This document shows, in pieces, positions 75 to 32,497 of a stretch of 32,547 nucleotides of DNA. The DNA is from Microbacteriaceae bacterium (GTDB lineage: Bacteria > Actinomycetota > Actinomycetes > Actinomycetales > Microbacteriaceae), in NCBI GenBank assembly GCA_022701925.1, contig JAKONM010000313.1, forward strand, positions 1 to 32,547, written 5' to 3'. The position numbers and the translations under genes were made by a program. The stretch's first letter is position 1. The number at the start of each line of letters is the position of its first letter. The notes beneath the pieces are model-generated. The model was not told the DNA's origin. It did no database searches and saw only the letters and a list, made by a program, of their open reading frames with translations.

Positions 75-710
75 ATGACGGTGACCCTGAAGCTCCCGCA
101 GGAGACGCGGGCCGTCGAGGTGCGCGCGGGCTCGTTCGACGAGGCTGCCAACACCATCGACATCATCTGGACCACCGGCGCCGCCGTGCGCCGGTTCGAC
201 TGGAACACCGGCAACGCCTACGACGAGATCCTGGATCTCTCGCCGGGCGCCGTGCGCCTAGAGCGCTTGAACGCCGGCGCGCCGCTCCTGAACAGCCACA
301 ACAGCTACAACCTCAACCAGGTCATCGGCTCGGTCGTGCCGGGCACGGCCAAGATCGACGGCAAGCGCGGGCTCGCCACGATGCTGCTCTCGCGCGCCGC
401 CGGCGACGCCGACATCGTCCAGAAGATCCGCGACGGCGTCATCCGGAACATGTCGGCCGGCTACATCCGCCACAAGATCGAGAAGACGGACGGCGACGAC
501 GGCGACGTCGCGACCTGGCGGGTGATCGACTGGGAGCCGTGCGAGATCTCGGCGGTCGCGATCCCGGCCGACCCGGGCTCGCAGACCCGCTCGCAACCGC
601 AGGAGGCCGTGTTCCCCTGCGTGGTGACCATGCCGGCGCGCCGCGCGCTCGCCGAGAGCACCCGCACGCGCCTGCGGATGCAGGCTCGCCGCCTCGGCCT
701 GTCGGCCTGA
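75..710 (+). CDS. Prohead (HK97-type, S78-like) maturation protease
   Basis: Motifs PLLNSHNSYNLNQVIGSV and VIRNMSAGYIRHKIEK, WEPCEISAVAIPADPGSQTRS typical of phage prohead proteases; upstream of capsid gene. Confidence 0.85.
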   Translation: MTVTLKLPQETRAVEVRAGSFDEAANTIDIIWTTGAAVRRFDWNTGNAYDEILDLSPGAVRLERLNAGAPLLNSHNSYNLNQVIGSVVPGTAKIDGKRGLATMLLSRAAGDADIVQKIRDGVIRNMSAGYIRHKIEKTDGDDGDVATWRVIDWEPCEISAVAIPADPGSQTRSQPQEAVFPCVVTMPARRALAESTRTRLRMQARRLGLSA

Positions 711-804
711 AGCGACCCCCTTTCTGCCCTGCCGCCTGTGCCTGCCCCGGGGCCACAGGATCACGGTCGCTCGCCCCGGAAAGCCCCGCAACGGAGCACT
801 CTCC

Positions 805-2508
805 ATGAAGACCCTCTTCCGGGCGGCGCCCTTCGCGCTCTCCGCTCTCCTCGTCCTGGCCGCGGCCGCCGTGATGGTCGGCGTCCCGGACTTCGCGCAC
901 GCCGCCGTCCACGCCCAGGCGTTCGGCACCCACGCCTTCCACGCGCTGCCCGATCTGTCGATCGCCAGCCTCGGCCTGGCCGGCCTGCGTGCACAGCTAT
1001 CCGACCTGGAGACCCGCGCGAACGCTAAGCTCGACGAGGTCAAGGACGGCCTCGAAGTCGACGCCCTGCGCAAGATCGAGGGCGAGTACGACGCGCTGCT
1101 CAAGGAGGTCGAGACCGTCCGCGGCAAGATCACCGAGGCCGAGAAGGCGCAGACCGCGCCCCCGTCCGAGGGTAGCGCGCTCCTGCGCGCCGCCGCCCTC
1201 AAGGCCGACCGCGAGCGCTCCGCCGCCATCCGCGACCTCGGCCGCCGCGCCGGGATGAAGCAGGAGGACGTCGACGTCGCCTGCGACGGCGACACCAGCG
1301 TCGAGGCCTTCCGCGTGCGCGCCTTCGACTTCATGCACGAGAAGGCCGCGGCCGTGCAGACCGGGGCCGGCGCTCGCGCCCAGATCACCGGCGCCACCGA
1401 CGAGGAGAAGCGCGGCCAGGGTATCGAGAACGCCCTGCTGCACCGGTTCGACCCGGGCAAGAACGAGCTCTCCGAGCACGGCCGCCAGTACCGCGGTATG
1501 ACGCTGCTGGAGATGGGCGGGGACATGCTCGAGGCCCACGGCGTGCGCACGCGCGGCATGTCCAAGCACGAGCGCGCCTCCGCGATGCTGGAGCACCGCG
1601 TCGCCCAGGTCGGCGAGTTCTCGGTGCGCTCGGGAGGCATGCACACCACCGCCGACTTCCCCAACGTGCTGGCCAACGTCGCCAACAAGACCCTGCGCGC
1701 CGGCTACCAGGCCGCCCCGCAGACCTTCCGCCCGCTGGTCCGCGTCGTCACGCTGCCGGACTTCAAGCTCGTCTCCCGCGTCCAGCTCGGCGAGGCGCCC
1801 AAGCTGGAGAAGGTCAATGAGCACGGCGAGTTCAAGCGCGGCACGATGGGTGACGCGGCCGAGAAATACGCGCTCTCGACCTACGGCAAGGTGATCGCCA
1901 TCACGCGCCAGGTCCTGATCAACGACGATCTCGACGCGTTCACCCGGATCCCGCGCTCCTTCGGCGTCGCCGCGGCGAACCTGGAGAGCGACCTGGTCTG
2001 GGCTCAGATCACCGCCAATCCGAACATGGGCGACGGCAACGCGCTGTTCTCGGCCGCGCACGGCAACCTCGCGGTCGCCGGCGTGATCAGCACCACGACC
2101 GTGGGCGCGATGCGCCAGGCGATGCGCGTGCAGACTGGCCTTGACGGCAAGACCCTGCTCAACATCACGCCGACCTACATCATCGTCCCGACCGCCCTGG
2201 AGACCGTGACCGAGCAGTTCCTCGGGCAGATCTTCCCGACCAAGTCCGGCGACGTGGTCACCACGTCGATGAAGAAGCTGGTGCCGATCTCCGAGCCGCG
2301 CCTCGACGCCGTCTCGGCGTCGAACTGGTACCTCTCGGGCGATCCCGGCCAGATCGACGTAGTCGAGCTCGCCTACCTCGAGGGCCAGCAGGGCCTGTTC
2401 ACCGAGACCCGCATGGGCTTCGACGTGGACGGCATGGAGGTGAAGGTCCGCCAGGACGTGGCCGCCAAGGTCATCGACTGGCGCGGCCTGCAGAAGAACC
2501 CGCAGTAA
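805..2508 (+). CDS. Major capsid protein (Mu gpT-like/HK97-fold type) with N-terminal hydrophobic segment and coiled-coil delta-like domain
   Basis: C-terminal half VRVVTLPDFKLVSRVQLGEAPKLEKVNEHGEFKRGTMGDAAEKYALSTYGKVIAITRQVLINDDLDAF..., RQDVAAKVIDWRGLQKNP; GGAG upstream of ATG 805. Confidence 0.85.
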   Translation: MKTLFRAAPFALSALLVLAAAAVMVGVPDFAHAAVHAQAFGTHAFHALPDLSIASLGLAGLRAQLSDLETRANAKLDEVKDGLEVDALRKIEGEYDALLKEVETVRGKITEAEKAQTAPPSEGSALLRAAALKADRERSAAIRDLGRRAGMKQEDVDVACDGDTSVEAFRVRAFDFMHEKAAAVQTGAGARAQITGATDEEKRGQGIENALLHRFDPGKNELSEHGRQYRGMTLLEMGGDMLEAHGVRTRGMSKHERASAMLEHRVAQVGEFSVRSGGMHTTADFPNVLANVANKTLRAGYQAAPQTFRPLVRVVTLPDFKLVSRVQLGEAPKLEKVNEHGEFKRGTMGDAAEKYALSTYGKVIAITRQVLINDDLDAFTRIPRSFGVAAANLESDLVWAQITANPNMGDGNALFSAAHGNLAVAGVISTTTVGAMRQAMRVQTGLDGKTLLNITPTYIIVPTALETVTEQFLGQIFPTKSGDVVTTSMKKLVPISEPRLDAVSASNWYLSGDPGQIDVVELAYLEGQQGLFTETRMGFDVDGMEVKVRQDVAAKVIDWRGLQKNPQ

Positions 2509-2539
2509 GCCACCCCGCCTCCTGAGAACGAGCGAATTG

Positions 2540-2567
2540 GGCCGCCTCCGGGCGGCCTTTCGCTTTT
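2540..2567 (+). terminator. Rho-independent terminator after capsid gene
   Basis: GGCCGCC-TCCG-GGCGGCC stem followed by TTTCGCTTTT. Confidence 0.6.
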
Positions 2568-2597
2568 CCGGACCTCCTGCCTGAGGGCGCTCCCGCC

Positions 2598-2930
2598 ATG
2601 AAGACCTACGTCCAGCCCGGTCATGTCCTGACCGTCACCGCCCCGGCCGACACCAAGTCCGGCGACTTTGTCGTGGTCGGCTCCATCTTCGGTACCGCCA
2701 CCTCCAACGCCCTCATGGGCACCGACCTGGAGCTCGCGATCGGCGGCGTCTACGACGCGCAGCCGAAGGTCGCCGCTCAGGCGTGGGCCCAGGGCGCTCC
2801 AATCTACTGGGACAGCGCGGCCAAGAACTTCACCACGACCGTCGCCGCCAACCTGAAGGTCGGCGTCGCCGCGCTCCCGGCCGCGAACCCGTCCAGCACG
2901 GGCCGCGTCCGCTTCAACGGCTCGTTCTGA
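2598..2930 (+). CDS. DUF2190-type capsid-associated protein
   Basis: MKTYVQPGHVLTVTAPADTKSGDFVVVGSIFGTATSNAL...AQGAPIYWDSAAKNFTTT resembles DUF2190; position after capsid. Confidence 0.75.
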   Translation: MKTYVQPGHVLTVTAPADTKSGDFVVVGSIFGTATSNALMGTDLELAIGGVYDAQPKVAAQAWAQGAPIYWDSAAKNFTTTVAANLKVGVAALPAANPSSTGRVRFNGSF

Positions 2931-2934
2931 TCCG

Positions 2935-3369
2935 ATGCCCTCGCTGTTTTCGGCGCTCGGCCAGATCGCCGGCGCGACGGTCGACGCCGTCTTCAGCGAG
3001 GGCTTCGCGCTGCAGCCGATGGCGCCGCCGGCGGCCGCCTCGGGCCAGCGCCCGAACGTAAACCTCCGTATGGCGGCCAGCACGGCCCGGCCGCAGATCC
3101 CGTTCGACGGCACGTACGTCGAGCCGGGCGAGCTGATGAACGCGCACGGCCGCACCAAGGCCGACAGCACGACCCACTGGATCGCCGGCGCGAAGGCCAT
3201 GGTCGACGTCGCGGTCACGGCGCTGCCGCAGCGCCCGATGGAGCGCGACCGGATCATCCGGCTCGACACTGGCGCGGTGTTCGAGGTCGCGAAGGTCCTG
3301 CCCGGCGATTACGGGCGCCTGCGCATCTTCCTCGTCGACGCCCTGCAGCGGCCGGAGGATCCCCGGTGA
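2935..3369 (+). CDS. Putative head-tail joining/head completion protein
   Basis: Position in head module; C-terminal DRIIRLDTGAVFEVAKVLPGDYGRLRIFLVDA. Confidence 0.45.
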   Translation: MPSLFSALGQIAGATVDAVFSEGFALQPMAPPAAASGQRPNVNLRMAASTARPQIPFDGTYVEPGELMNAHGRTKADSTTHWIAGAKAMVDVAVTALPQRPMERDRIIRLDTGAVFEVAKVLPGDYGRLRIFLVDALQRPEDPR

Positions 3370-4166
3370 GCCTGATCCGCGCCGCCTGCCGCCTGCAGGC
3401 GATCGAGGCGCTGAACAGCGACCCCGTGATCGACGGCATGGTCCGGGGGCGCGTCTACGACAGCCGCATTTCGGCCTTCGACCACAGGGACCCCGTCCCG
3501 ACGATCCTGGTCACGACCGAGGAAACGAAGGGCGAGGCGTGGTCGCACCAGAACGGCGGCGCCCCGTTCGGGCTCGTCTGCGACCTGGTGCTCGAGATCG
3601 CGATGAACTCGGTCGCGACGATGCAGATCAACGGCATGGCCGATCCGGTCGAGGCCATCGGTTACGCCGCCACCGACGCCGAGCTGGAGGCCGACCTCGA
3701 TCTCCTCGAGGAGCGTGCGGTCGAGATCCTGACCCGGGGCGAGACGGCTGCCGCGCAGCTGTTGCGCAGCGCCGTGGTCAAGCGGGTGCCCCATGTCGCC
3801 TCGTCCCGCTTCGCCACGGATCAAACCGGCGAGAAGTTCGCCGTCCATCTGGTGACGCTGCGCATCGAGCTATTCACGCCCGAGGACGAAAATCCGTTCG
3901 CGGTGCCGTCTGGCCCGTACGCCCTGTTGCCAGAGCCGCTGCGCACGATCGCGGCGGCCAGCGATCCGGACGGGCTGCCGCGCTCGATCTGCGACCGCCT
4001 GATCGCGCGGCTCGCGCCGCTCCCGGCGCCGTCCGAGCCCGCGCCCTTCTCCGGCGCCGACATGATCCTGGCCCCGCAGGTCCTCGACGCGGACGACGCG
4101 CCGGACCGCGCCGCCGACATCGCCGCCGGTCGCACCATCGCGATCGCCGCCAACACCCCGCAATGA
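3366..4166 (+). CDS. Hypothetical head-tail connector/tail completion protein
   Basis: ATGA-type overlap region with previous gene, collinear in the head-tail junction; function from synteny. Confidence 0.5.
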   Translation: MSLIRAACRLQAIEALNSDPVIDGMVRGRVYDSRISAFDHRDPVPTILVTTEETKGEAWSHQNGGAPFGLVCDLVLEIAMNSVATMQINGMADPVEAIGYAATDAELEADLDLLEERAVEILTRGETAAAQLLRSAVVKRVPHVASSRFATDQTGEKFAVHLVTLRIELFTPEDENPFAVPSGPYALLPEPLRTIAAASDPDGLPRSICDRLIARLAPLPAPSEPAPFSGADMILAPQVLDADDAPDRAADIAAGRTIAIAANTPQ

Positions 4167-4414
4167 GGCCCCCGATGCGCAAGCACGTCGCCCCCGTCCT
4201 GGCCCAGGCCTCGATCCCCGACCCCGAACGCGGCGGCTTCCTGCCGCCCGAGGGGCGCGAGGTCGCCTGGACCCCGTACTGGGCCGGCATGGCTGCGCGC
4301 GAGGAGATCACGGTGACCGAGGTGCCGGACGAGCCGGCCGCCGGCTCCGAGTCCACCCCGCCCGCCGCGGGCGAGCCCGGCGCCGACGCGCACGAGGCGC
4401 ACCCGGACGCCTGA
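4163..4414 (+). CDS. DUF2635-like small protein (Mu gp38-like)
   Basis: ATGA overlap with preceding stop; MRPPMRKHVAPVLAQASIPDPERGGFLPPEGREVAWTPYWAGMAAREEITV, directly before sheath. Confidence 0.65.
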   Translation: MRPPMRKHVAPVLAQASIPDPERGGFLPPEGREVAWTPYWAGMAAREEITVTEVPDEPAAGSESTPPAAGEPGADAHEAHPDA

Positions 4415-4461
4415 CCCCTGAGGCCGCCCGCGGCCCCGACCCCTCACCCATCCCGCCTCAA

Positions 4462-4488
4462 GGCCGTCCCTCCGGGCGGCCTTTTTCT
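4462..4488 (+). terminator. Rho-independent terminator upstream of sheath gene
   Basis: GGCCGTCC-CTCC-GGGCGGCC followed by TTTTTCTTT. Confidence 0.6.
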
Positions 4489-4505
4489 TTGGAGCGAGCC
4501 CGGAC

Positions 4506-6044
4506 ATGGCCGTCGCCTTCAACAACATGCCCGGCGATATCCGGGTGCCGCTGTTCTACGCCGAGGTGAATGCCGGCGTGCCGCCCTATTCGGGCCTGTC
4601 GCGCCAGATCCTGATGGGCCGGGCGCTGGCGAGCTCGCCGTTGGCTGCGCTCAAGCCGCAGAACATCGGCTCGGCCGACCCGAACTACCTGGCCGGCAAG
4701 GGCTCGATGCTCGCCGACATGATCGCCTGGGCGCGCGCCGGCAACCCGACCGGCGAGCTCTGGGTGATCAACGTCGGCGATCCGGTGGGCGGCGTCGCCG
4801 CGACCGGTTCGCTGGCCATCACCGGAACCGCCACGCAGTCGGGCACTCTCGTGCGCTACGTCGCCGGCGAGCGCTATTCGGTCCCGGTCGCGCTGAACGA
4901 CACCGCCGCGGTGGTCGCCGCCAACCTCGCGGCCAAGATCAACGCCGGCTACACCCGGTTCAACCGCCGGATGGGCGCCCCCGTGGTCGCCACCGCGGCC
5001 ACCGGCACCGTGACGCTGACGGCCAACCACACCGGCACCGAGTACAACGGCGTCCGCATCGAGACCGGCCTCGACGGCGACGAGCTGGAGATCCCCGGCC
5101 TGACCGTGGCGATCACTGCCATGTCCGGCGGCACCGGCGAGGTCGACATGGCGGCGGCGCTTGCAGCCTTCGCAGCCACCCAGTTCGACTGGATCTGCGG
5201 GCCGTACGCCTCGATCGCCCAGCTCAACGCGGCGCGCGACTTCCTCGCCGACTCCGGCGCGGGCCGCTGGGCCCCGACGGTGGGCCTCGACGGGCACTAC
5301 ATCACGGCGGCCAACGGCAACCTGTCGACCCTGACCACGCTGGGCGGGGCCCGCAACGACCGCCACACCTCGATCATCGGGTGCCTGAACTACCCGCACC
5401 CGCTGTGGTCGATCGTGGCCGGCGTCGGCGGCCTGACCGCGTTCTCGAAGAACCTCGGGCGCGCCCTCACCGAGGCGGTGGAGATCGCCCGGCCGCTGCA
5501 GACGATCGTCGTGACCGGCCTGCGCCCGCCCAAGGCCTTGTCCGACCGCTGGGCGCTCGCCGACCGCGACAGCCTGTACCACAACGGCATGTCGGCCCTG
5601 TCGATCAACGCCGACGGCACGGTGGCGATCGAGCGGATCCTGACGACCTACCAGTTCAACGCCTACGGCTCGGCCGACATCACCTTCCTCGGCGTGGAGA
5701 CGATGGCGATCGCCGCCTACGTCAAGCGCTACCTCCGCCTGATCGTCACCTCGACCTACCCGCGGTGCGTACTCAAGGACATCAACCCGAACGGGACGCA
5801 GGGCGTGGTCACGCCGAGCCAGATCCGCTCGACGCTGATCCACGCCTACACGCAGCTCTGCAACGTGGCGTGCCTCGTCGAGAAGGTCGAGCTGTTCGCC
5901 AAGTACCTGATCGTCGAGCGGTCGAGCGACCCGAACCGGGTCAATGCCTACCTGCCGACCGACGTCTCGAACCAGTTCACCGTGTTCGCGGCCAACATCA
6001 CGATCTTCCCAGAGCTGACCGACGGCAACGCCGCGCTCCAGTAG
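4506..6044 (+). CDS. Tail sheath protein (Mu gpL-like)
   Basis: 512 aa; MAVAFNNMPGDIRVPLFYAEVNAGVPPYSGLSRQILMGRAL... and KYLIVERSSDPNRVNAYLPTDVSNQFTVFAANITIFPEL, typical Mu-like sheath. Confidence 0.9.
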   Translation: MAVAFNNMPGDIRVPLFYAEVNAGVPPYSGLSRQILMGRALASSPLAALKPQNIGSADPNYLAGKGSMLADMIAWARAGNPTGELWVINVGDPVGGVAATGSLAITGTATQSGTLVRYVAGERYSVPVALNDTAAVVAANLAAKINAGYTRFNRRMGAPVVATAATGTVTLTANHTGTEYNGVRIETGLDGDELEIPGLTVAITAMSGGTGEVDMAAALAAFAATQFDWICGPYASIAQLNAARDFLADSGAGRWAPTVGLDGHYITAANGNLSTLTTLGGARNDRHTSIIGCLNYPHPLWSIVAGVGGLTAFSKNLGRALTEAVEIARPLQTIVVTGLRPPKALSDRWALADRDSLYHNGMSALSINADGTVAIERILTTYQFNAYGSADITFLGVETMAIAAYVKRYLRLIVTSTYPRCVLKDINPNGTQGVVTPSQIRSTLIHAYTQLCNVACLVEKVELFAKYLIVERSSDPNRVNAYLPTDVSNQFTVFAANITIFPELTDGNAALQ

Positions 6045-6154
6045 CCCGCGGGACGCCCGCGGACGCGCCCTGAGGCCGTCCGCGGGCCCGGCGGCACTCA
6101 TCCCCATCCCAGCCACAGCGCCGCGCCCGTGAGCGCGCTCCGGAGACCACAGCC

Positions 6155-6526
6155 ATGTCCGGCAACAAGGGCGGGCGGTTCACGCTCGACATCAACGGCC
6201 AGACCTTCAGCGGGCGCGCCAAGGCGACGATCAACCCCGCCGGCGCCACGCGCGAGAACGTGGCCAACCAGGACGGCACCAAGTCGTCGATGGTGAAGCC
6301 GAAGCTGCCGTCGCTGGAGCTGACCTTCGACCGCGGCGTCGGCCTGGTCTGGGACGAGGACATGATGCTCCTCGATCTCAACGTCACCTTCGTCGAGACC
6401 GACGCGAAGCGCACGCACCTATTCACCGACGCCTCGTGGTCCGGCGATCCGTCGATCGACACCGAGTCCGGCGAGGTCTCCGGCCTGAAGATCGAGTGCG
6501 CCGCGGCGAACTACCAGGTCACTTGA
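6155..6526 (+). CDS. Tail tube protein (Mu gpM-like)
   Basis: Follows sheath; GGRFTLDINGQTFSGRAKATINPAGATRENVANQDGT. Confidence 0.8.
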   Translation: MSGNKGGRFTLDINGQTFSGRAKATINPAGATRENVANQDGTKSSMVKPKLPSLELTFDRGVGLVWDEDMMLLDLNVTFVETDAKRTHLFTDASWSGDPSIDTESGEVSGLKIECAAANYQVT

Positions 6527-6534
6527 CCCGAGCG

Positions 6535-6864
6535 CTACCGCCGCGGGTCGATCGCGAAGTTGACGATCCAGTAGGCGTTCGGGTCGCCCGGCCTGCGGAT
6601 CTTCGATAGGCCCGAGGTCATCTCGCGCGTCTCCAGGACGATCTTGTCGCCCTTGTCGAAGACGCGGCAGGTCCCGGCGATGCGACCCCGGCGCCAGAGC
6701 TCGTCGGCGGCGCGGTTGTCCTTCTGGTCGATCAGCTCCAGCGCCCGGACCATCAGATCCCGGCTCTCGCACGCGATCATCTCCGTCTGGAGCTCGCCCG
6801 GCATCGCCGCCCTCGCCGCGCCCGCACAGCCGATCAGCGCGACCGCAATCCCCAACCGCAGCAT
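6535..6864 (-). CDS. Small secreted protein of unknown function (putative moron)
   Basis: Reverse-strand ORF between tube and chaperone; MLRLGIAVALIGCAGAARA signal peptide-like start, 109 aa. Confidence 0.65.
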   Translation of the reverse strand: MLRLGIAVALIGCAGAARAAMPGELQTEMIACESRDLMVRALELIDQKDNRAADELWRRGRIAGTCRVFDKGDKIVLETREMTSGLSKIRRPGDPNAYWIVNFAIDPRR

Positions 6865-6888
6865 CCGGCTCCCTCCCGTCCGGAGCGC

Positions 6889-7299
6889 ATGCAAGCACAG
6901 GTGCCGCCCGTGTCCAAGACCGTCCGCATCCCTCTCCCCGAGCCGATCGCCAGCCATGGCGGGCCGATCTCCGAGATCGTGCTGCGCCAGCCGACCTACG
7001 ACGAGTACGTGTCGTGCGGCGGCGAGCCCTACTCGATCGGCGAGAGCGAGGACGGCGCCCTGTTCACCATCGAGAAGCCCGAGGTGATCTGGGCCTACGC
7101 GCAGGCCTGCATGGTCACGCCGAAGGACCCGCTGCTGCTGTCGCAGCTCGGCCCGGGCAACTGGACGGTGGCCCGCGAGGTGCGCAAGGCGATCATGGGT
7201 TTTTTCCGGGCGCCCGCCGCGGCCAGCGCACCCTCGGAGACCTCGCCGACGACATCGTCTTCGAGCTCAACCAGCCCCTCGACGCCGTCGGCCGACTGA
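6889..7299 (+). CDS. Tail assembly chaperone, frame-0 product (Mu gp41/gpG-like)
   Basis: SKTVRIPLPEPIASHGGPISEIVLRQPTYDEYVSCGGEPYSIG; lies between tube and tape measure. Confidence 0.8.
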   Translation: MQAQVPPVSKTVRIPLPEPIASHGGPISEIVLRQPTYDEYVSCGGEPYSIGESEDGALFTIEKPEVIWAYAQACMVTPKDPLLLSQLGPGNWTVAREVRKAIMGFFRAPAAASAPSETSPTTSSSSSTSPSTPSAD

Positions 7300-7388
7300 C
7301 GCCGACGCAGATCATCCACTGGTACGGCCGGGCGGTCGCCCGGGCGGAGAAGCGTAAGCGGGAGGCCGCGCGCAGAGGGCATCGCTGA
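6889..7388 (+). CDS. Tail assembly chaperone, -1 frameshift fusion product (gpGT-like)
   Basis: Slippery GGGTTTTTTC; slip at T7200 TTT TTC leads into frame ...GFFPGARRGQRTLGDLADDIVFELNQPLDAVGRLTPTQIIHWYGRAVARAEKRKREAARRGHR ending TGA 7386-7388. Confidence 0.75.
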
Positions 7389-7390
7389 TC

Positions 7391-10300
7391 ATGACCAGGA
7401 TCATCGAAGCCAAGGCGGTCATCAGCGCCGAGGACCGCACCGGTAAGGTGCTCGACACCATCGCCCGCAAGTTCAAGGAGGCGGGCAAGAGCGCGAAGGT
7501 CGCCTCGGAGATCGCCCGGCTCGGCAAGGAAGCGAACGCCGCCCAGGCCGGGCTGAAGAGCGTCGACAACTTCCGCGCGGTCCAGGCCTCCTTCGGGCAG
7601 GCCCGGGCGGCCTACCGCTCGACGCAGCAAGAGGTCGGGCGCGTCGCCAAGGAGCTGGACAACGCCCGCAAGGCCGCGGCCCAGTTCGACGGTGTGCGCT
7701 CGTTCTCGAAGGGCGGCGCGGTCGCGCAGGAGATGGCGGCCGCTCGCAAGCAGGTGTCCGACCTGGAGCGCCAGTTCATCGGTGCCCAGCGCGCCGTGAA
7801 GGCCTCCGCGTCGACCTACGAGGCGCAGGCCGCCGCCCTGAAGGGGGCCGCCGCCGAGATCGGCGGATCGGGCCTTGCGATCGGCAAGCTCGTGGCCGAG
7901 GAGAACCGGCTCAAGGCCGCGGTCGAGGGCGCGAACGGGGCGATCCGCCGCCAGGAGCAGCTGCTCAAGGCCGAGAGCGGGCTGACCGCCGGCATGGGCG
8001 CGGCCGGCAGCCGGCAGCACGCGAAGATCGCGCAGGACCGCTATCTCACCGACGGCATGAGCGCGCCGGTGCGCGCCGCGCGCGCGCAGCAAGCGCAGGA
8101 GCGGCACGAGGCGATCCTGGCGCAGGCCGAGCGGCGCCAGGCGCGGAACGACGCGCTGAAGGGCGTCGCCGGCATCGCCGGTCTGACTGCGGTGCACAAG
8201 GCCGAGCATTTCGGTGGCCACGCGCTGCACACCTACCAGGAATTCGACAACGAGCGCCGCTTCGGCAAGGCGGTGATGGGGCTGACCGACGAGGAGCAGA
8301 AGCCGCTCGTCGACCAGGCCGTGCACATGGGCGGCAGCACCCGGTACAACGACGTCCAGGTCCTGGAGGCCCAGCGCGAGCTCGCCGCGCGCGGGCTCAA
8401 GAAGGATCAGGTGATGGGCCTGATGGAGCCCGCGGCCGCCCTCGGCCAGTCCCTCGATCTGCGCCTGCCCGATGCGGTCAAGCAGATGGAAGGGGCGATC
8501 TTCGGGTTCAAGAAGGACATCTCGACCCTCGACGCCGCGAAAGCGTCGGCCAAGCGTACCGCCGACGTCCAAGTGAAGGCGGCCAAGATCTCGGGCATGA
8601 CGCCCGAGGACATCAGCCAGACCTACAAGTACGGCGCCACCCCGGCCCGCATGGCCGGCCTGTCCGAGGAGACCCTGCTCGCCTTCGCCGGCATCTCGAA
8701 GAAGGCCAACATGGGAGGCGACGAGGCCGGCGTCGCGTTCCGCGCGCTCGTGGCCAACGCCATGTCGCCGACCCGGGGCGCCAAGGAGGCCATGCTCGCC
8801 AACGGCATGGACTACAAGAACTACCAGAAGATGCCGGACAAGATCGATACGGCGGCCTTCACGAAGACAGTCGCGGCGACGTACGGCGTCCAGCTCGACA
8901 AGGCGACCCAGGGCGCGCTCAACAAGATCTTCACCGACAAGAAGATGATCGCCGACCCATCGAAGTTCACCCCGGCGGTGATGCGATTGCTGTCGGACAA
9001 CCTCGACGGCGACGACGCCAAGTCCAAGAAAAGCATTGCGGGCCTCGCCAACCGGTTCCGCGACAAGAGCATGAAGGGCGTCGACACCGATCGCCTCGTC
9101 GCCGACCTGATGACGGCGATCCCGAAGAACCCGGCGCTCGCGAACGCGATCTTCGGCTCGAAGCAGGGCGCTCGCATCGCCAACGCGCTCGGCGATCCGG
9201 AAACCTTCAAGCACATGCTCGAGGAGCTGCTGCATCACGCCGACGGCTACTCAGACAAGGTCTCCGGAGAGCGCAACGCCGGCTACGACGGCGCCAAGCG
9301 GCGCCTCGACGGCGCCATCACCAACGTCGAGACCAAGCTCGGGCGAGCCTGGGACAACGACGGCAACGGCGGCGCGCTGACCTGGATCACCGACAAGGCC
9401 GGCCATCTCGTCCAGTCGTTCGCCGAGCTCGACAATCGCGTCGTCCAAGCAGCCAGCGTGGTCGCGGCCTTCGGCACGGCGTTCGTCGGGATCAAGAGCC
9501 TCGGGCTGCTCACCAGCGGGTTCGGCCTGGCGCCGGCGGCGGCTTCGCTCACCGCATCGGCCGCGGCCCTCGACGCGGCCGCTCTGAGGCTCGGCGCCGG
9601 CGGCGCGGTCGGAGGCGCGGTCGGGGATGCGGCCAAGACCGCGGGTGCGGGCGCGGCCGGCGCGGGCATCACGGCGGGCGGCCTAGTCACCGGCGGCGTG
9701 ATCCTCGGCGGCGCGGCCGCGGGCGCCTACCTCGACGCCGGGATCTCCGGCGCCACCGGCAGCATCGGCGATCTGATGCGGTACCGCGAGCAGATGCACG
9801 CGGACTCGGAGGCGACGAAGCGGCTGGGCTACGGTTCGTTCAACCTGATGCCGCCGCGGGCGATGCTTCCGGGCGCGGATGGCGGCGCCGACGCCAAGAC
9901 CACGATCGAGGGGTCCGGAGGTCTGATCCACGACTTCCTCTGGGGGCGCCGGAAGGACAGCTACGCGCTGCCGTCGTTCGGCGCCAGCGCCAAGCAGATG
10001 CCCGGGCCGCCCCTTCCGGAGACGCAGGGGCCGCAGCAGCCGGGCAGCGTCCCGCTGCCGCCGCAGCGGCCGCTGTCGCTAGGCGGCGCCCCGCTCCCGG
10101 TAGAGATCGTCGCCTCGTCCCGGGGCGGCGACGCCTCCGGCCAGGGCGATGCGCTGCGCAACACCCTGGACAAGGCCGCCAGCGCCTCGGCCACCGCCGC
10201 CAACGGAGGCAAGCCGCTGGAGGCCACGGTCAAGCCCGATCAGATCGTCGCGAAGGTGTCCGATCTGCCTCCGATCTCCGGCGAGGCCACCGTCACGTTG

Positions 10301-10462
10301 CAGCCGCAGCGGGTGATCGTCGAGCTCAACAGCGACATGCTCACGGCCAAGATCGCCGGGGCGGTGGCGAGCCAGACGGCGAAGATGCCGCTCACCTCGT
10401 CCGGGGCCCGGCCCGGCGCCGTGTCCATGCCGGGGGCGGCGACGACGCCCGGCGCTCAGTAG
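7391..10462 (+). CDS. Tail tape measure protein
   Basis: 1023 aa, coiled-coil N-terminus, TP901-like core (VMGLMEPAAALGQSLDL...MTPEDISQTYKYGATPARMAGLSEETLLAFAGISKKANMGGDEAGVAFR), Gly/Ala-rich hydrophobic region. Confidence 0.9.
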   Translation: MTRIIEAKAVISAEDRTGKVLDTIARKFKEAGKSAKVASEIARLGKEANAAQAGLKSVDNFRAVQASFGQARAAYRSTQQEVGRVAKELDNARKAAAQFDGVRSFSKGGAVAQEMAAARKQVSDLERQFIGAQRAVKASASTYEAQAAALKGAAAEIGGSGLAIGKLVAEENRLKAAVEGANGAIRRQEQLLKAESGLTAGMGAAGSRQHAKIAQDRYLTDGMSAPVRAARAQQAQERHEAILAQAERRQARNDALKGVAGIAGLTAVHKAEHFGGHALHTYQEFDNERRFGKAVMGLTDEEQKPLVDQAVHMGGSTRYNDVQVLEAQRELAARGLKKDQVMGLMEPAAALGQSLDLRLPDAVKQMEGAIFGFKKDISTLDAAKASAKRTADVQVKAAKISGMTPEDISQTYKYGATPARMAGLSEETLLAFAGISKKANMGGDEAGVAFRALVANAMSPTRGAKEAMLANGMDYKNYQKMPDKIDTAAFTKTVAATYGVQLDKATQGALNKIFTDKKMIADPSKFTPAVMRLLSDNLDGDDAKSKKSIAGLANRFRDKSMKGVDTDRLVADLMTAIPKNPALANAIFGSKQGARIANALGDPETFKHMLEELLHHADGYSDKVSGERNAGYDGAKRRLDGAITNVETKLGRAWDNDGNGGALTWITDKAGHLVQSFAELDNRVVQAASVVAAFGTAFVGIKSLGLLTSGFGLAPAAASLTASAAALDAAALRLGAGGAVGGAVGDAAKTAGAGAAGAGITAGGLVTGGVILGGAAAGAYLDAGISGATGSIGDLMRYREQMHADSEATKRLGYGSFNLMPPRAMLPGADGGADAKTTIEGSGGLIHDFLWGRRKDSYALPSFGASAKQMPGPPLPETQGPQQPGSVPLPPQRPLSLGGAPLPVEIVASSRGGDASGQGDALRNTLDKAASASATAANGGKPLEATVKPDQIVAKVSDLPPISGEATVTLQPQRVIVELNSDMLTAKIAGAVASQTAKMPLTSSGARPGAVSMPGAATTPGAQ

Positions 10463-10474
10463 CGCGAGGGCGCC

Positions 10475-11008
10475 ATGCGGGACTGGATCACCACGCTCCG
10501 CGGCGCCTCGTTCGCCGGGGTGCCGTTCTACGTCGACGACGAGGCGATCCCGAAGACGGGGCGCCGCATCGCCGTCCACGAGTACTCGAAGGCCGAGACC
10601 CACGATACGGAGGACATGGGGCGCCTGCCCCGGGAATTCCGGATCAAGGCCTACATCGCCAGCGACAGCGCCGACAGCGACGTCCAGGACCTCGTCGAAG
10701 CCTGCTCGACGGAGGGCGCGTTCACCCTCGTCCTGCCGTTCTTCGGGCCGCAGGAGGTCCGGTGCACGGGCTGCGCCCCGTCCCACAGGAAGGACCGGCT
10801 CGGCTACGTCGAGATCGACCTCGAATTCATCGAGGCCACCGGGGACGAGGGTTCTGAGGGCGGCTTCGACGGGGCCGGCGGCTTCGGCCTCCTGGAGCTC
10901 GGCGATCGGATCGCGGCCTCCGCCCTCGACGGGCTGGCCGACGTCGTCTCCGACGCGATCAGCGCCTTCGTGCCCGACGCGCTCGCCGGGTTCCTGCCCC
11001 CGTTCTGA
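10475..11008 (+). CDS. DNA circularisation N-terminal domain protein (Mu gpN-like, N-terminal part)
   Basis: WITTLRGASFAGVPFYVDDEAIPKTGRRIAVHEYSKAETHDTEDMGRLPREFRIKAYI matches the DNA_circ_N style. Confidence 0.85.
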   Translation: MRDWITTLRGASFAGVPFYVDDEAIPKTGRRIAVHEYSKAETHDTEDMGRLPREFRIKAYIASDSADSDVQDLVEACSTEGAFTLVLPFFGPQEVRCTGCAPSHRKDRLGYVEIDLEFIEATGDEGSEGGFDGAGGFGLLELGDRIAASALDGLADVVSDAISAFVPDALAGFLPPF

Positions 11009-11026
11009 CCGCACCCCGGAGCTGCC

Positions 11027-11770
11027 ATGGCCTCGCCTCCGTCCTCGGCGATCGCCGGCGCGGCCGTGGCCGTCATGGCGCTCGCGGACGTGGTCGCCGG
11101 CCTCGCGCGCGCGCTGCCGGCCCCGACCAAAGACGCGCAGACAGCGAATTCGGCATGCCGCCGGGTCGGCCGGATCCTGGCGCCTCGGATCACCGCACCC
11201 GCCGACGTCGCGGCGATCGCCGCGAGCCTCGTGGCGACGGTCCAGGCGCTCGCCCGGGCGGGCGAGGCCGCCGACGCCGCGGCCGGCCTTTATGCGGCGG
11301 CCGGCGCGACGCGCGGGTGCGCGCCCTCTTCCGCTTCGCCCGCGCTGACGCAGGCCTACGGCCTCGCCCGGGCTACGTGCGTCGCGGTGGAGATGGCCTG
11401 CCTGGGCGAGGCCTTCGTGGCCGAGGCCCGGACCGGCTTCGCCGACCGCCAGTCGGCCAGCGCCGCGCGCCTGCGCATTCGAGCCGCCTACGACGGCGCC
11501 GCCGACCGGATCGCGGCCGCGCTGGGCCAAGCGTCGCTCGCGATCCTCGATACCGCCGCGCGGGAGACTTCCGCCTACCTCGTCCAGGAGGCCGCCTCGC
11601 TCCAGCCGGTGATCCGCGTCGACGCCGCAGGCTCTTTCCCGGCCGCCGCGATCGCGTGGTCGCTCTACGCCGACCCCGAACGCGCCGGCGAGCTGATGGA
11701 CCGCAACGGCGTCGGCACCCCCTTCCACATGCCGGCCACGATCGAGGCCGTGTCGCCGGGTAAGCGCTGA
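11027..11770 (+). CDS. gpN-like C-terminal portion/hypothetical tail protein
   Basis: Same frame as 10475..11008, separated by TGA plus 18 nt; GGAG SD before ATG 11027. Confidence 0.6.
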   Translation: MASPPSSAIAGAAVAVMALADVVAGLARALPAPTKDAQTANSACRRVGRILAPRITAPADVAAIAASLVATVQALARAGEAADAAAGLYAAAGATRGCAPSSASPALTQAYGLARATCVAVEMACLGEAFVAEARTGFADRQSASAARLRIRAAYDGAADRIAAALGQASLAILDTAARETSAYLVQEAASLQPVIRVDAAGSFPAAAIAWSLYADPERAGELMDRNGVGTPFHMPATIEAVSPGKR

Positions 11771-12879
11771 TGCCCTTCGTCGAGGAGATCGTCACGCTGA
11801 CCGTCGACGGCCGGGTGATGATCGGCTGGCAGGACGTGTCGCTCAACCGTAGCCAAGAGTCGGCCGAGATCTCGTTCAATCTCGGGGCGACCAACCCGTC
11901 GTGGAGCGACGAGGCCAAGCGCCTGCGCCACGGCAGAGAGGTCGAGATCCGTACCTCCGCGGTTGGCGGGCGTGCGCGGCCCGGTCGGGGCGATCTGATG
12001 TGCGCGGGCCATATCACCGGCTACGGCGCCAAGTACGCCAAGACCAAACAGGTGACGATCGAGGGCAAGTCGAAGTCGGCCGACGCGGTCGACTGCCATC
12101 CGGTCAAGCACAAGACCGGGCGGTTCGAGAACAAGACCCTGCTCGACATCGCCAAGGAACTCGACGAGGTCCGCTGCGGCTTCAAGACCGATCAGAAGCT
12201 CGACAAGATCGCCAAGGTCCAGCGCCAGCCGCACGACACGATCTTCCAGACCCTGGAGCGCGAGGCGCGCCGCCTCGGCCTGATGCTCTCGGGCCAGCCG
12301 GACGGCTCCATCAACATCACCCGGGCCGGCACCAAGCGCCACGCCGGTGCGCTCATCCTCGGCCAGTCGCCGGTCGAGGAGATGGACGTCAAGATCAAGT
12401 GCGGCGAGAAGTATTCGCACTACGTCGCCCGCGGCCAGAGGTCGAAGGGCGTCGGCAAGGATAATCTCCGCCAAGAGGAGACGGAGAAGGACGGAAGCGT
12501 CAAGCGCAACCGCCCGCTCCTGATCATCCCTGAAGGGGACTGGTCGAAGAAGGAGCTGAAGAAGCGCCTGCGCTGGGAGCGCCTGCGCCGCGCCTCCTTC
12601 GGCACGACGATCTCCGTGAAGGTCGCCACCTGGCGCGACGAGGCCGGCCAGCTCTGGGAGCCGGGCCGCCTGATGGCGATCGTCAACGAGGAAGAGGACA
12701 TCGACGGGGACTACGCGCTGCAGACGGCCAACCTGCGCCAGGGGCAGCAGGAGGGCACGGTCGCCTACTTGACCTTCGTCGATCCGAAGGCGGCCGGCGG
12801 CAAGGACGGCACGGACAAGTCCGACGGGGTGTTCGACCCGGGCGGCGGCATCGACGACGAGGGGGAGGGCGAGGAGTGA
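11770..12879 (+). CDS. Baseplate hub protein (Mu gp44/gpP-like)
   Basis: VTLTVDGRVMIGWQDVSLNRSQESAEISFNL...PHDTIFQTLEREARRLGLMLSGQPDG; syntenic. Confidence 0.85.
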   Translation: MPFVEEIVTLTVDGRVMIGWQDVSLNRSQESAEISFNLGATNPSWSDEAKRLRHGREVEIRTSAVGGRARPGRGDLMCAGHITGYGAKYAKTKQVTIEGKSKSADAVDCHPVKHKTGRFENKTLLDIAKELDEVRCGFKTDQKLDKIAKVQRQPHDTIFQTLEREARRLGLMLSGQPDGSINITRAGTKRHAGALILGQSPVEEMDVKIKCGEKYSHYVARGQRSKGVGKDNLRQEETEKDGSVKRNRPLLIIPEGDWSKKELKKRLRWERLRRASFGTTISVKVATWRDEAGQLWEPGRLMAIVNEEEDIDGDYALQTANLRQGQQEGTVAYLTFVDPKAAGGKDGTDKSDGVFDPGGGIDDEGEGEE

Positions 12880-22788: not shown

Positions 22789-23178
22789 ATGGCCCGCTAC
22801 TACGTTTTCGCGACGCAGCCCGAGGCGCAGGCGTGCGTCGACCGCATCAACGTGCGGGCGCGGACCGTCTACGCGGCGCAAGGCTACCAGCTCGACGAGG
22901 CCGGCGCGATCATCGGGCAGCGCGCCAGCGACGGCGCGCCGATGCCGGACGCGGCCAAAACGCTGACCTGGGACATCCCGCGCCAGCGCCGCGACGGCAA
23001 GTGGGTGGTCGCCCATTGCGACCTGGTCCCGGGCGCGACCTTCGTGCTCAAGCCGACTGCGATCCCACCGCTGACCGTGGCTGCGTTCGTCGCTCAGGAC
23101 GTCCCCGCCACCGCGACGGTGGAGGTCGAGGACGCGTCGTGGTGGCCCGCGCCGCCCGTCATAAGGGCGGCCGTCTAA
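22789..23178 (+). CDS. Hypothetical protein in fibre locus
   Basis: MARYYVFATQPEAQACVDRINVRARTVYAAQGYQLDEAG; stop overlaps next ATG (TAATG). Confidence 0.6.
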   Translation: MARYYVFATQPEAQACVDRINVRARTVYAAQGYQLDEAGAIIGQRASDGAPMPDAAKTLTWDIPRQRRDGKWVVAHCDLVPGATFVLKPTAIPPLTVAAFVAQDVPATATVEVEDASWWPAPPVIRAAV

Positions 23179-23858
23179 TGGCTACCCGGCTCTGGACCCC
23201 GGAACAGGATCTGGCGTCCGCACTCGTCGCTCATTGGGATGCGCAGCAGGGTGTTACCCAGGCCGCAGGATCTGTCTCGCAATGGACGGACACCGTCGCC
23301 GGCATCGCCGCAACGCAGGGCACGGCGTCGAACCAGCCGACGTTTTCCGCGACGACTAGGAACGGCAAGCCGGGCCTGTCGTTCGGCGGCAATCAGTTCC
23401 TCAGCTTCAGCTCGGCGACGTTCCCCAAAGGGTCGGCCGCCCGGTCGCTGTTCGTGGCCGGGTACATGGCCAAGAATACGACCAGCACGCGGACGCTGTT
23501 CAACTACGGCTCGACCGGTTCATGGGTAGCGGCCGGCGTCACGGGAGGGAGTGCGGGCAAGGCGCTGGTCGATACCTGGGGGACGTTCACCTCATCGCAG
23601 ACGCTGTGGTCGGAAGCCGACGTGGCGCTGTACTGGCAGGCCTCCGGTTCGGCTCAGTCGATCGTTGTCGATGGTGGCACGGCTTACACCTCGTCGAACA
23701 ACCTCAACACGTCGGGCAACGGCGGCCTCATCGGCACCGACGCCTATGGCGGCCAGCAATGGATTGGCTCCATCCAGCAGGCGCTGGTGTTCAACCGCCT
23801 CCTTACGGCGGACGAACGGCAGCAGCTTGAGGGCTGGGAGAGCTGGTACGACGGCTAG
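23178..23858 (+). CDS. LamG/concanavalin A-like lectin-domain phage adhesin, terminated by in-frame TAG
   Basis: LVAHWDAQQGVTQAAGSVSQWTDTVAG...GKPGLSFGGNQFLSF...WIGSIQQALVFNRLLTADERQQLEGWESWYDG*. Confidence 0.75.
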   Translation: MATRLWTPEQDLASALVAHWDAQQGVTQAAGSVSQWTDTVAGIAATQGTASNQPTFSATTRNGKPGLSFGGNQFLSFSSATFPKGSAARSLFVAGYMAKNTTSTRTLFNYGSTGSWVAAGVTGGSAGKALVDTWGTFTSSQTLWSEADVALYWQASGSAQSIVVDGGTAYTSSNNLNTSGNGGLIGTDAYGGQQWIGSIQQALVFNRLLTADERQQLEGWESWYDG

Positions 23859-25469
23859 GCCGGCGCCAACCTTCCGGCCGGCCACCCGTACAAGTCCGCG
23901 GCCCCGACCGTCACGACGTCCGATGGCGGAACTGTCTACACGGCCAGCATCGGTATCGCGGCCGCCCCGGGCCAGCTTGGGGCGGCCCTGCTCGCCGGCG
24001 TCAGCGCCGCCGCCCTGGCAGTTGCACCGGGGCTGACGGCCGCCGGCGGGGCGCTCTACGGGGCGAGCCTGGCGCTCTCCGCCCTGGCGCCACTCTCCGC
24101 CTCTGCGGCCGCGCAGGTGTCCGCCTCGGCCACGCTCGCCGCCGCGCCCGGCCTGTCCGGGGCGGCGCAGGGCGCGGTGGCCGCCGCGCTGTCGATCGCC
24201 GCACTGGCCGCGCAGGCGGGCGCGTCGGGTCTTTCGGCGGCGTCGGCCCTCGGCCTGGCACAGGCCGCCGGGCTCAGTTCCTCCAGCGCGATCACCGCCG
24301 CCCAGGCGGCCGCGCTGGCCCTGGCGGTGGCGCAGGCGTCGAACGCCGGCGGCGCGACCTACGCGTCGGCCATGGCGCTCGCGGCCTCCGCGCTCCTCGC
24401 CGGCGCGGGGCGGGGATCCGCGGCGGCAGCCGCCGCGCTCGCCATCGCCCCCGGCACCGCCGGTGCCGGCGCGCTCGGTGCAGCCGGCACCCTCGGGCTG
24501 GCTCAAGCCGCCGGTGGCGGCGCCGCCTCCGCCGCCGTCCTCTCGGGGGCGGGTACGCTCGCGCAGGCGCCGGGGGTCTCGACCGCCTCGGCCGTCGTCG
24601 GGTCCGGGGTCGCGAGCCTCGCGCAAGCGCTCGCCGCCTCGATGTCGACCGGCGGGGCGCAGAGCTACAGCGCGGCGATGGCCCTGGCCGCCTCCGCGAT
24701 CCAGACATCGGCGGGGCAAGGGGTCGGCGCCGCCGCCGTGCCGCTGGCGGCGAGCCTCGGGCTCTCAGGGTCGGCCGCCGCCCTGTACGCCGGGGCGGTG
24801 GCGCTGACCCAGGCTCGCGGCCAGGGCGGGCAGGCCACGGCCATCGCGATCGCGGCGGCCGCCCTCGTCCAGGCGATGGGTGTCGCCGTCGGTACGGGCG
24901 GCGGCCAGAGCTACGCCGCGGCGGTCACGCTCGCCGCGCGCGCCCTGCAGGCGGCCGACGCCGCCACCGGCCAGGCGGCGCTCATGAGCCTCGCCGCGGC
25001 CGCGGGCGCCAACGCTGGCGGCACGATCGCCACCGCGGCCTCCGCCGCCCTGGTGAGCCGCGCGGTCGCCATCGCCACCGGGGCGGTCACGCTCGCCCTC
25101 GGCACGAGCTTCCGCGCCGCGACGCAGGTCGCGGCCGGCGGCGGCCTGTTCGTCTCCGGCAGCCTCGTCCTGCCGGCGGCGGAAGGCCTCGCCGGACAGG
25201 CCGGCGTCGCTTCGGCGCCGACGATCGCGTTCACGGCTCGGCTCGACCAGGCCGCGGCCGCGTCGATCGGGGCCGCGGCGGCGGCGCAGTTCGCCGCGCA
25301 AGCCGCGCTCGGCGCGCTGCTTTCCACCGGCGACCCGTACGCGGGCGCGCCGCAGCTCCAGGGGACGCGCGTCGTCACCCTCACCCTCGACGGCCGCCGG
25401 CTGGGCACGCGCACCCTCGCCGGCACGATGCGGGTCAGCCTGACCCTGCAGGGCATCACGCGCCACTAG
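23859..25469 (+). CDS. Continuation of the lectin gene after TAG: lectin-end motif plus very Ala-rich repetitive region (track ORF begins at GTG 24117)
   Basis: Same frame, no stops 23859-25466: AGANLPAGHPYKSAAPTVTTSDGGTVYTASIG...; no ATG and no SD before GTG 24117. Confidence 0.6.
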   Translation, partial: AGANLPAGHPYKSAAPTVTTSDGGTVYTASIGIAAAPGQLGAALLAGVSAAALAVAPGLTAAGGALYGASLALSALAPLSASAAAQVSASATLAAAPGLSGAAQGAVAAALSIAALAAQAGASGLSAASALGLAQAAGLSSSSAITAAQAAALALAVAQASNAGGATYASAMALAASALLAGAGRGSAAAAAALAIAPGTAGAGALGAAGTLGLAQAAGGGAASAAVLSGAGTLAQAPGVSTASAVVGSGVASLAQALAASMSTGGAQSYSAAMALAASAIQTSAGQGVGAAAVPLAASLGLSGSAAALYAGAVALTQARGQGGQATAIAIAAAALVQAMGVAVGTGGGQSYAAAVTLAARALQAADAATGQAALMSLAAAAGANAGGTIATAASAALVSRAVAIATGAVTLALGTSFRAATQVAAGGGLFVSGSLVLPAAEGLAGQAGVASAPTIAFTARLDQAAAASIGAAAAAQFAAQAALGALLSTGDPYAGAPQLQGTRVVTLTLDGRRLGTRTLAGTMRVSLTLQGITRH

Positions 25470-25480
25470 GATCGACCGAC

Positions 25481-26044
25481 ATGATGGGACGTTTGGGCGC
25501 CGGCCTCGCGGCCGCGGGCGGGGCCGTCGCGCGCGCGCTGCTCGGCGGCGCGGTGATGCCGCGCACCTTCCACACCCTGCAGTGCTTCGGCGCCGACGGC
25601 GCACTGAAGTGGGAGGAGACGATCGAGAACCTGACCGTCAACGTCGGGCTCGCGTACATGCTCACCAGCTTCTGGAAGGGCGCGAACTACACCGCCGCTT
25701 TCTACGTCGGGCTGAAGGGCTCGGGCACGATCGCGGCGCCCGACACGATGGCCTCGCATTCCGGCTGGGCCGAGATTACCGCCGTCCAGCAGACCGCCCG
25801 GCAGGCGATCACCTTCGGGGCGGTGTCCGGCACCACCACCGCCTCGCTCGACAACTCGGCAGCGCCGGCAAGCTACACGATGTCGGGCTCGGCCACCGTG
25901 GCGGGCGCCTTCGTCACCACCGACAGCACGCTCGGCGGCACGGCTGGGACGCTGATCGGCGCCTCGGACTTCGCGACCTCGCGCCCGATGGTCGCCGGCG
26001 ACGTGCTCAAGGTCACGACCACGATGACCACAACCAGCGGCTGA
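25481..26044 (+). CDS. Hypothetical phage structural/tail-associated protein
   Basis: 187 aa; MPRTFHTLQCFGADGALKWEETIENLTVNVGLAYMLTSFWKGANYTAAFYVGLKG. Confidence 0.6.
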   Translation: MMGRLGAGLAAAGGAVARALLGGAVMPRTFHTLQCFGADGALKWEETIENLTVNVGLAYMLTSFWKGANYTAAFYVGLKGSGTIAAPDTMASHSGWAEITAVQQTARQAITFGAVSGTTTASLDNSAAPASYTMSGSATVAGAFVTTDSTLGGTAGTLIGASDFATSRPMVAGDVLKVTTTMTTTSG

Positions 26045-30358: not shown

Positions 30359-31222
30359 TTAGCTCAATTCCATTCTGTTTTTGCCGAAAGTATAGCTATA
30401 CCGAGCCCGCTCGCTGTACCACGCCTCTTCTTCGGGTGATAAGTGATTATCGTGATACCAAGGAAGGTGCTTGCATGTAAAATGGCCAGCTACTCTCAAT
30501 GCCTGAAGCGGATCACTTTTCGCAAAAAATTTCTTATTGTACACCGCGAATGTCGTGTCGATCATCCCGCGATATATAATATCTCCCCTCTCTGTCGCCC
30601 CAACTTCATTTTCCCAGAACTGTTTCTCCCATTCCCAGACATGATACAAGGCACCATTATTATATATCTTTTTCGTAATCATCAAACTAGGCTGTGAAAT
30701 ATCTATCGCTAGGCCAACCTTACCTACTTGGTACTTGTGTGATATATCAAGCAGCTCTTCTACAAAATTTCTTGGCATTGTTTTACTGAACAGCAAATCT
30801 GGATCGGTAATACAAAAAATTTCAGGCAATGAGGAATACAGCGCATCATCCTCAAACAGCAGCCGAGGTCCGGGATTAGATCCGTCGCCAACAACTTCAA
30901 CGCCATGGCTCGAAATTCTCTTTAGGTACTCTAGAAAAGGCGGGTAGCTCGACCCATTGTCCCAAAGTATTATATTTTTCTGACCTAGCGATATGAGCTG
31001 ATCCACCATCCCTTTTGAGTAAGTTAGATTATCAAACACCGGTACGATGATGGGGACATGCGTCGCCAAAAGGCTGCTGAACTCCTTGGGATGACGTAGC
31101 TTCAACCCCGTGGTCATGGCGACGTCATTTTTTTTATTTTCAGTCACGTCGGCAATTGAAGGATTTCCTAAGGCCCTTTCGCGCCATCTTTTCTTCAAAA
31201 GCGCAAACCAAGATCTGCTCAT
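30359..31222 (-). CDS. Glycosyltransferase-like (GT-A fold) protein, AT-rich moron
   Basis: PIIVPVFDNLTYSKGMVDQLISLGQKNIILWDNGSSYPPFLEYL...LPEIFCITDPDLLFS; ATG at 31222 (TTG 31261 alternative); visibly lower GC than surroundings. Confidence 0.65.
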   Translation of the reverse strand: MSRSWFALLKKRWRERALGNPSIADVTENKKNDVAMTTGLKLRHPKEFSSLLATHVPIIVPVFDNLTYSKGMVDQLISLGQKNIILWDNGSSYPPFLEYLKRISSHGVEVVGDGSNPGPRLLFEDDALYSSLPEIFCITDPDLLFSKTMPRNFVEELLDISHKYQVGKVGLAIDISQPSLMITKKIYNNGALYHVWEWEKQFWENEVGATERGDIIYRGMIDTTFAVYNKKFFAKSDPLQALRVAGHFTCKHLPWYHDNHLSPEEEAWYSERARYSYTFGKNRMELS

Positions 31223-31482
31223 GTTATATGAAGCCTCAATCGAGCGTTCGAGTTTAGCCAACGCAACGTTAATCGTGCGATCTCATGACGTTCCGGTCGA
31301 CCCGGAAGGCATCATTGCCTCTGCTAGCCTAGGGCTCAAGCCGGCGGCGCGCTGATGGTCGGAACGAGCGCCGTCCAGGCGGTGCATGCCGATCGTGTCG
31401 CGTTCACCCAGACGTCGGGTAATCGCTTCCTGAAGGGCTTGGTGCTGGGCATCCCGATCTGGGAGTTCGCGGCGAAGGGCGG

Positions 31483-32422: not shown

Positions 32423-32497
32423 GCCGGTGTAGCACAGCGGTAGTGCAGCGGTTTTGTAAACCGAAGGTCGGGAGTTCGATCCTCTCCACCGGCACCA
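32423..32497 (+). tRNA. tRNA-Thr (anticodon TGT)
   Basis: GCCGGTG/CACCGGC acceptor, D arm GCAC..GTGC, loop TTTGTAA, TTCGATC T-loop, encoded CCA. Confidence 0.93.

Follow-up and report, generated by a model that had tools for sequence, protein, structure and literature searches.

Does the in-frame TAG codon that divides a lectin-type adhesin frame in this phage region separate two natural genes, act as a leaky or switchable stop, or mark a gene that has been broken? In the window, by which we mean the whole stretch of 32,547 nucleotides that was analyzed, an ATG at 23178 opens a frame of 226 residues ending in LEGWESWYDG. Codon 227 is TAG (23856-23858), and beyond it the same frame reopens for 536 residues, beginning with AGANLPAGHPYKSAAPTV and closing at TAG 25470-25472. 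A preliminary description made from the sequence alone had proposed this layout and a combined length of about 763 residues, and translation showed its coordinates and length to be correct, as 23178-25472 amounts to 763 positions with the stop included. The length of the open frame carries little weight by itself, because Ala/Gly-rich GC codons are far from stops: there are 68 single-base routes to a stop across the 537 such codons that follow the TAG. For the same reason, the lack of further stops downstream does not give the date of the event. The GC3 of the downstream frame is 0.93, which is coding-like. A same-frame gene after a stop is also not rare in this window, since five other stops (10460, 11006, 13365, 16846, and 27518) are followed by one, and at all five boundaries the next start lies 3-30 nt downstream of the stop. 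What is unusual at the adhesin locus is the combination of an absent start, a conserved domain that spans the TAG, and a repeat array that spans the supposed start of the second part.

The genes of the window are of the myovirus type and include those for a protease, major capsid, decoration, sheath, tube, and tape measure proteins, the baseplate hub and wedge, fibre genes, an endolysin, and an Rz-like protein, the last of which was named from its sequence context. The adhesin gene belongs to the variable fibre module, which follows the baseplate genes and precedes the endolysin. The protease and major capsid protein (75-2508) are encoded by two ORFs in different frames both here and in L067 and by two ORFs in L048; in L044, L045, L050, L051, L068, and L115 they form one fused ORF. 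The split at 75-2508 was considered as a second broken gene in the window and was dropped, given that L048 and L067 have two ORFs as well. A separate feature is an AT-rich ORF of 300 aa on the minus strand (30359-31261), located between the phage genes and a tRNA-Thr at 32423; it had no Pfam match and looks like a late-acquired cargo gene. The assembly to which the contig was assigned (G000) contains WhiB proteins, which are actinobacterial markers, whereas the tRNA-Thr shares 97% identity with a Bosea tRNA-Thr, the right side of the window matches Methylobacterium plasmids, an Rz-like gene is present, and the phage relatives are mostly proteobacterial. Thus, the contig (1-32547, G000:C216) is probably an alphaproteobacterial prophage that was misbinned in an actinobacterial MAG, in which case the MAG's own tRNAs say nothing about the true host. 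The right flank is not shared with congeneric genomes beyond one 43-base stretch. No adhesin homolog was found in 197 MAG relatives, and searches at order and class level around this MAG returned weak general LamG matches only. A search at family level, centred on an alphaproteobacterial genome with 70% GC and covering two genomes, was empty.

The preliminary description had claimed a LamG-like adhesin domain that is interrupted by the stop. When read through the TAG, the protein matched phrog_10356 over residues 4-246 (E 4e-15, 56 bits) in an alignment that crosses the stop; the part before the stop alone matched up to residue 219 (E 3.1e-12, 46 bits), such that reading through gains 10 bits. 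Pfam returned a single match, to CBM96, which was below threshold. AlphaFold predicted a jelly-roll for the read-through domain (pLDDT 70, pTM 0.76), and residues 221-250, around and beyond the stop, had pLDDT values of 78-82 with a strand at 244-247. The best viral Foldseek matches include members of the ConA-like lectin superfamily, with E values as low as 1.8e-13, while the PDB matches were sialidase and toxin lectin domains of the general jelly-roll type, which we read as a resemblance of fold only. The phrog_10356 match and the predicted ConA-like lectin fold therefore bear out the claimed domain. In tblastn searches, the full-length protein (P0001) had no match in phages or plasmids, its lectin part found only weak relatives, and its Ala-rich part had no match in phages. 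The closest relatives, L003, L004, L005, and L006 (35-46% identical), share a pattern of LEGWESWyxG, then a sense codon, and then xGxNLPxxxPyK..P. Comparable domain ends occur in the distant relatives L131 (LEGWLAWQYGLAANLPAGHPFRNKPP) and L129 (LEGYAAWKWGLQALLPGGHPYENSPP) and in the phages Barba26A (LEGYLAWKWGLEASLPADHPYKSTP), Rollin (MEGWAAHKYGLTANLPSGHPYKTVAP), S-CBS4 (LEGYYAHLFGLTANLPSDHPYKLVAP), and KBS-S-2A (MEGYLAHKWGLTANLPAGHPYKTAVP). All ten of these relatives, which are the ones that keep the domain end, have a sense codon at the TAG position followed by an NLPxxHPYK-like end, and none of the ten ends at YDG with a separate gene downstream. An eleventh and more diverged relative, L130, is also without a stop at this position. 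The end signature '(E)GYLAWKWGL..NLPAGHPYK.APP' given in the preliminary description is thus genuine, being present in relatives such as Barba26A and KBS-S-2A. Since this conserved end falls beyond the TAG, the stop sits within the domain, as had been proposed. In several relatives the signature is evidently the natural domain end, because their proteins finish just past it, and in L004 and Barba26A the frame continues beyond the domain. As the gene is written here, its predicted product is without a complete lectin domain, the conserved end being removed by the TAG.

Beyond the domain, a linker (AAPTVTTSDGG, with the counterpart APTVTTAD in L004) leads into an Ala-rich region with a clear 20-residue periodicity; its autocorrelation at lag 20 was 0.74 versus 0.005 (sd 0.086) for shuffles, with a further peak at 40. 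Predicted alone, this Ala-rich part had a pLDDT of 42 and no usable structure. Because the repeat units begin at ~23955, precede GTG 24117, and pass through it in register, the apparent start is a mid-array codon, inside the third unit and ~160 nt after the start of the array. This bears directly upon the proposal of two natural genes, in which a short lectin would end at YDG and GTG 24117 would start an Ala-rich protein of its own. The ORF list does contain 24117-25469, but this GTG is 258 nt downstream of the TAG, in contrast to the short distances at the five same-frame boundaries described above, and the conserved end of the domain comes only after the stop. In agreement with the preliminary description, it is also the first in-frame ATG, GTG, or TTG after the stop, and no Shine-Dalgarno-like sequence was found either there or at later in-frame start candidates. 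We therefore give two natural genes hardly any chance. Rather, since the domain crosses the stop, the array crosses GTG 24117, and the linker is shared with L004, the comparison indicates that 23178-25472 was one gene (Table 1). L004 is the closest relative in layout and has repeat-like sequence beyond its linker up to the end of its contig. The frame of the extension is also conserved in L123, with dN/dS values of 0.54 (353 codons), 0.73 (last 128 codons), and 0.43 (next gene); as these values are not low and L123 is itself a remnant, they point only weakly to selection on the extension. In L123 (3324-5989), a truncated terminase large-subunit-like gene, named from reading its translation, runs straight into an Ala-rich repeat gene, and L123 is apparently a prophage deletion remnant that has lost the head and tail genes between the terminase and the Ala-rich part. 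A complete and intact combination of lectin domain, Ala-rich array, and this C-terminus was not found among the relatives, with L004 stopping at its contig end and L123 keeping the Ala-rich end only.

Table 1. Features of the adhesin locus, in coordinates of the window
Feature	Coordinates	Strand	Basis or remark
Upstream small gene of the fibre module, 138 aa	22762..23178	+	TAA overlaps the adhesin ATG (TAATG)
5' part of the adhesin gene, LamG/ConA-like domain, residues 1-226	23178..23855	+	phrog_10356, relatives, predicted fold
In-frame TAG within the lectin domain	23856..23858	+	Sense codon in 10/10 relatives keeping the domain end
Remainder of the lectin domain, AGANLPAGHPYKSAAPTVT, severed by the stop	23859..23915	+	Alignment of L003-L006; phrog_10356 match to residue 246
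About 19 degenerate 20-residue Ala/Gly-rich repeats	23955..25094	+	Autocorrelation; units written out
GTG called as a start by ORF finding, probably not a start	24117..24119	+	Within a repeat unit, without a Shine-Dalgarno sequence
Conserved C-terminal segment, with TLTLDGRRLGTRTLAGTMRVSLTLQGITRH at its end	25083..25469	+	Matches L123 at 68% identity across 128 aa
Terminal TAG, the natural end of the adhesin gene	25470..25472	+	In L123 a TAA closes the homologous frame at this same residue
Following fibre-module gene, phrog_8123	25481..26044	+	73% identical in L123, where it is also adjacent

If the TAG were leaky or suppressed, the short form would predominate and full-length adhesin would be a minor product. 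The open and coding-like downstream frame, the conservation of the extension end in L123, and the large conserved segment that is removed by truncation are all consistent with such amber readthrough. However, a programmed stop is expected to be shared by at least some relatives and to be placed between domains, whereas this stop is absent at its position in all relatives compared and cuts the lectin fold ahead of its last strand, which would leave a short form that is no clean product. RNA folding downstream of the TAG was average for its composition (z -0.60) with no unusual structure after the stop, and the TAG is followed by GCC, which is not known to stimulate readthrough. The sole tRNA of the window is tRNA-Thr(TGT) and none is a suppressor; a search of the MAG for a suppressor-tRNA pattern was likewise empty, which has little weight because the MAG is probably not the host. 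Furthermore, six other genes of the window end in TAG, and those of the sheath, tape measure, and Rz-like proteins end within a few residues of their relatives, indicating that TAG terminates normally in the window. We therefore regard readthrough as quite improbable, although a low natural leak may occur. Its functional form is more doubtful still, in which truncated lectin would predominate in the virions of this double-stranded DNA phage and the 763-residue adhesin would be present in a few copies, with the ratio of receptor-binding forms set by readthrough; were a useful readthrough rate to exist, it would be news on how tailed phages control adhesin copy number. Much of the same evidence applies to a code-15-like recoding, in which TAG would specify an amino acid throughout. 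Recoded phages do exist (PMC9523058), and TAG as a sense codon would carry the gene past 25472 to a TGA that overlaps the ATG of the next gene, but the normal TAG ends and the lack of a suppressor tRNA in the window speak against this reading. Positions 23840-23880 contain neither a homopolymer nor a short tandem tract that could slip and thereby switch the gene reversibly, as in phase variation, and no reverse-transcriptase family was found among the window proteins searched. We regard recoding or switching as very improbable.

An explanation of a different kind is a base-call, consensus, or minor-variant error in the metagenome assembly, with the phage gene itself intact. The MAG that contains the contig is fragmented (354 contigs). 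Apart from the TAG, the gene shows no damage, the stop amounts to the change of one codon with respect to the relatives, and no other broken gene was seen in the window. In short-read consensus, substitution errors are rare. An IMG/VR contig, L043 (IMGVR_UViG_3300021060_000012), is identical to window positions 253-12505, with 0 differences in 12,253 bases, which shows that assembly of the left half is reproducible, yet it falls short of the TAG site and may share reads with the present contig. We consider an artefact unlikely. Instead, the TAG is probably a real and recent nonsense mutation that truncates the tail-module adhesin of a myovirus-type prophage. Among the options offered by the preliminary description, a nonsense mutation is the best supported, with a sense codon in ten of ten relatives, while readthrough and phase switching gained no positive evidence. 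No second mark of decay was found in the fibre module or in the remaining window; therefore, the mutation would be young, unless the base is an assembly or consensus error. According to this proposed sequence of events, the encoded protein would originally have started with a LamG/ConA-like lectin domain, continued into a long Ala-rich array, and finished in a conserved C-terminal segment, until a point mutation turned codon 227 into TAG. Translation would now end after 226 residues, such that nothing from the final ~20 residues of the lectin domain through the repeats to the C-terminus would be made, and the product would be a truncated and probably poorly folded domain without its extension. 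Assuming that such a product does not work, this copy most likely has an impaired adhesin or none at all, the protein being presumably a receptor-binding part.

The domain is shared with phage LamG/ConA-like virion proteins (phrog_10356 'virion structural protein', BFVD 'Concanavalin A-like lectin/glucanases superfamily', and gp135 of Rheinheimera phage Barba26A), whose domains end in the same signature (EG.xAW.xGL.aNLPxxHPYK..P) and whose position within a virion-protein module is similar; unlike in these proteins, the domain here is interrupted by a TAG before the signature. An in-frame stop followed by a long conserved frame also occurs in virion proteins made by stop-codon readthrough and in phages that recode TAG (code 15, PMC9523058), but this locus differs from them in having no suppressor tRNA, in the use of TAG as a terminator elsewhere, and in a stop that is not conserved and lies inside a fold rather than between domains. 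Tail-protein pairs of the P2 type likewise comprise short and long forms from one start, which arise through a -1 frameshift located between the genes for tape measure and major tail protein (PMC3091744), whereas the frame is unchanged here. Literature searches for tail fibre genes with nonsense mutations or readthrough found nothing directly relevant. The locus has no essential difference from nonsense-mutated, pseudogenised prophage tail or adhesin genes, which similarly have a single in-frame stop, an intact downstream frame, and intact relatives, and it carries only one apparently young lesion. A premature stop in a prophage lectin-type adhesin gene is an ordinary kind of event and, as such, has little significance. 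The gene model is nevertheless corrected to one broken adhesin gene, in place of a lectin and a second, Ala-rich protein begun at GTG 24117. The analysis also describes a phage lectin-type protein whose extension consists of Ala-rich 20-residue repeats, an extension that together with this C-terminus was seen only here and, in part, in L123.
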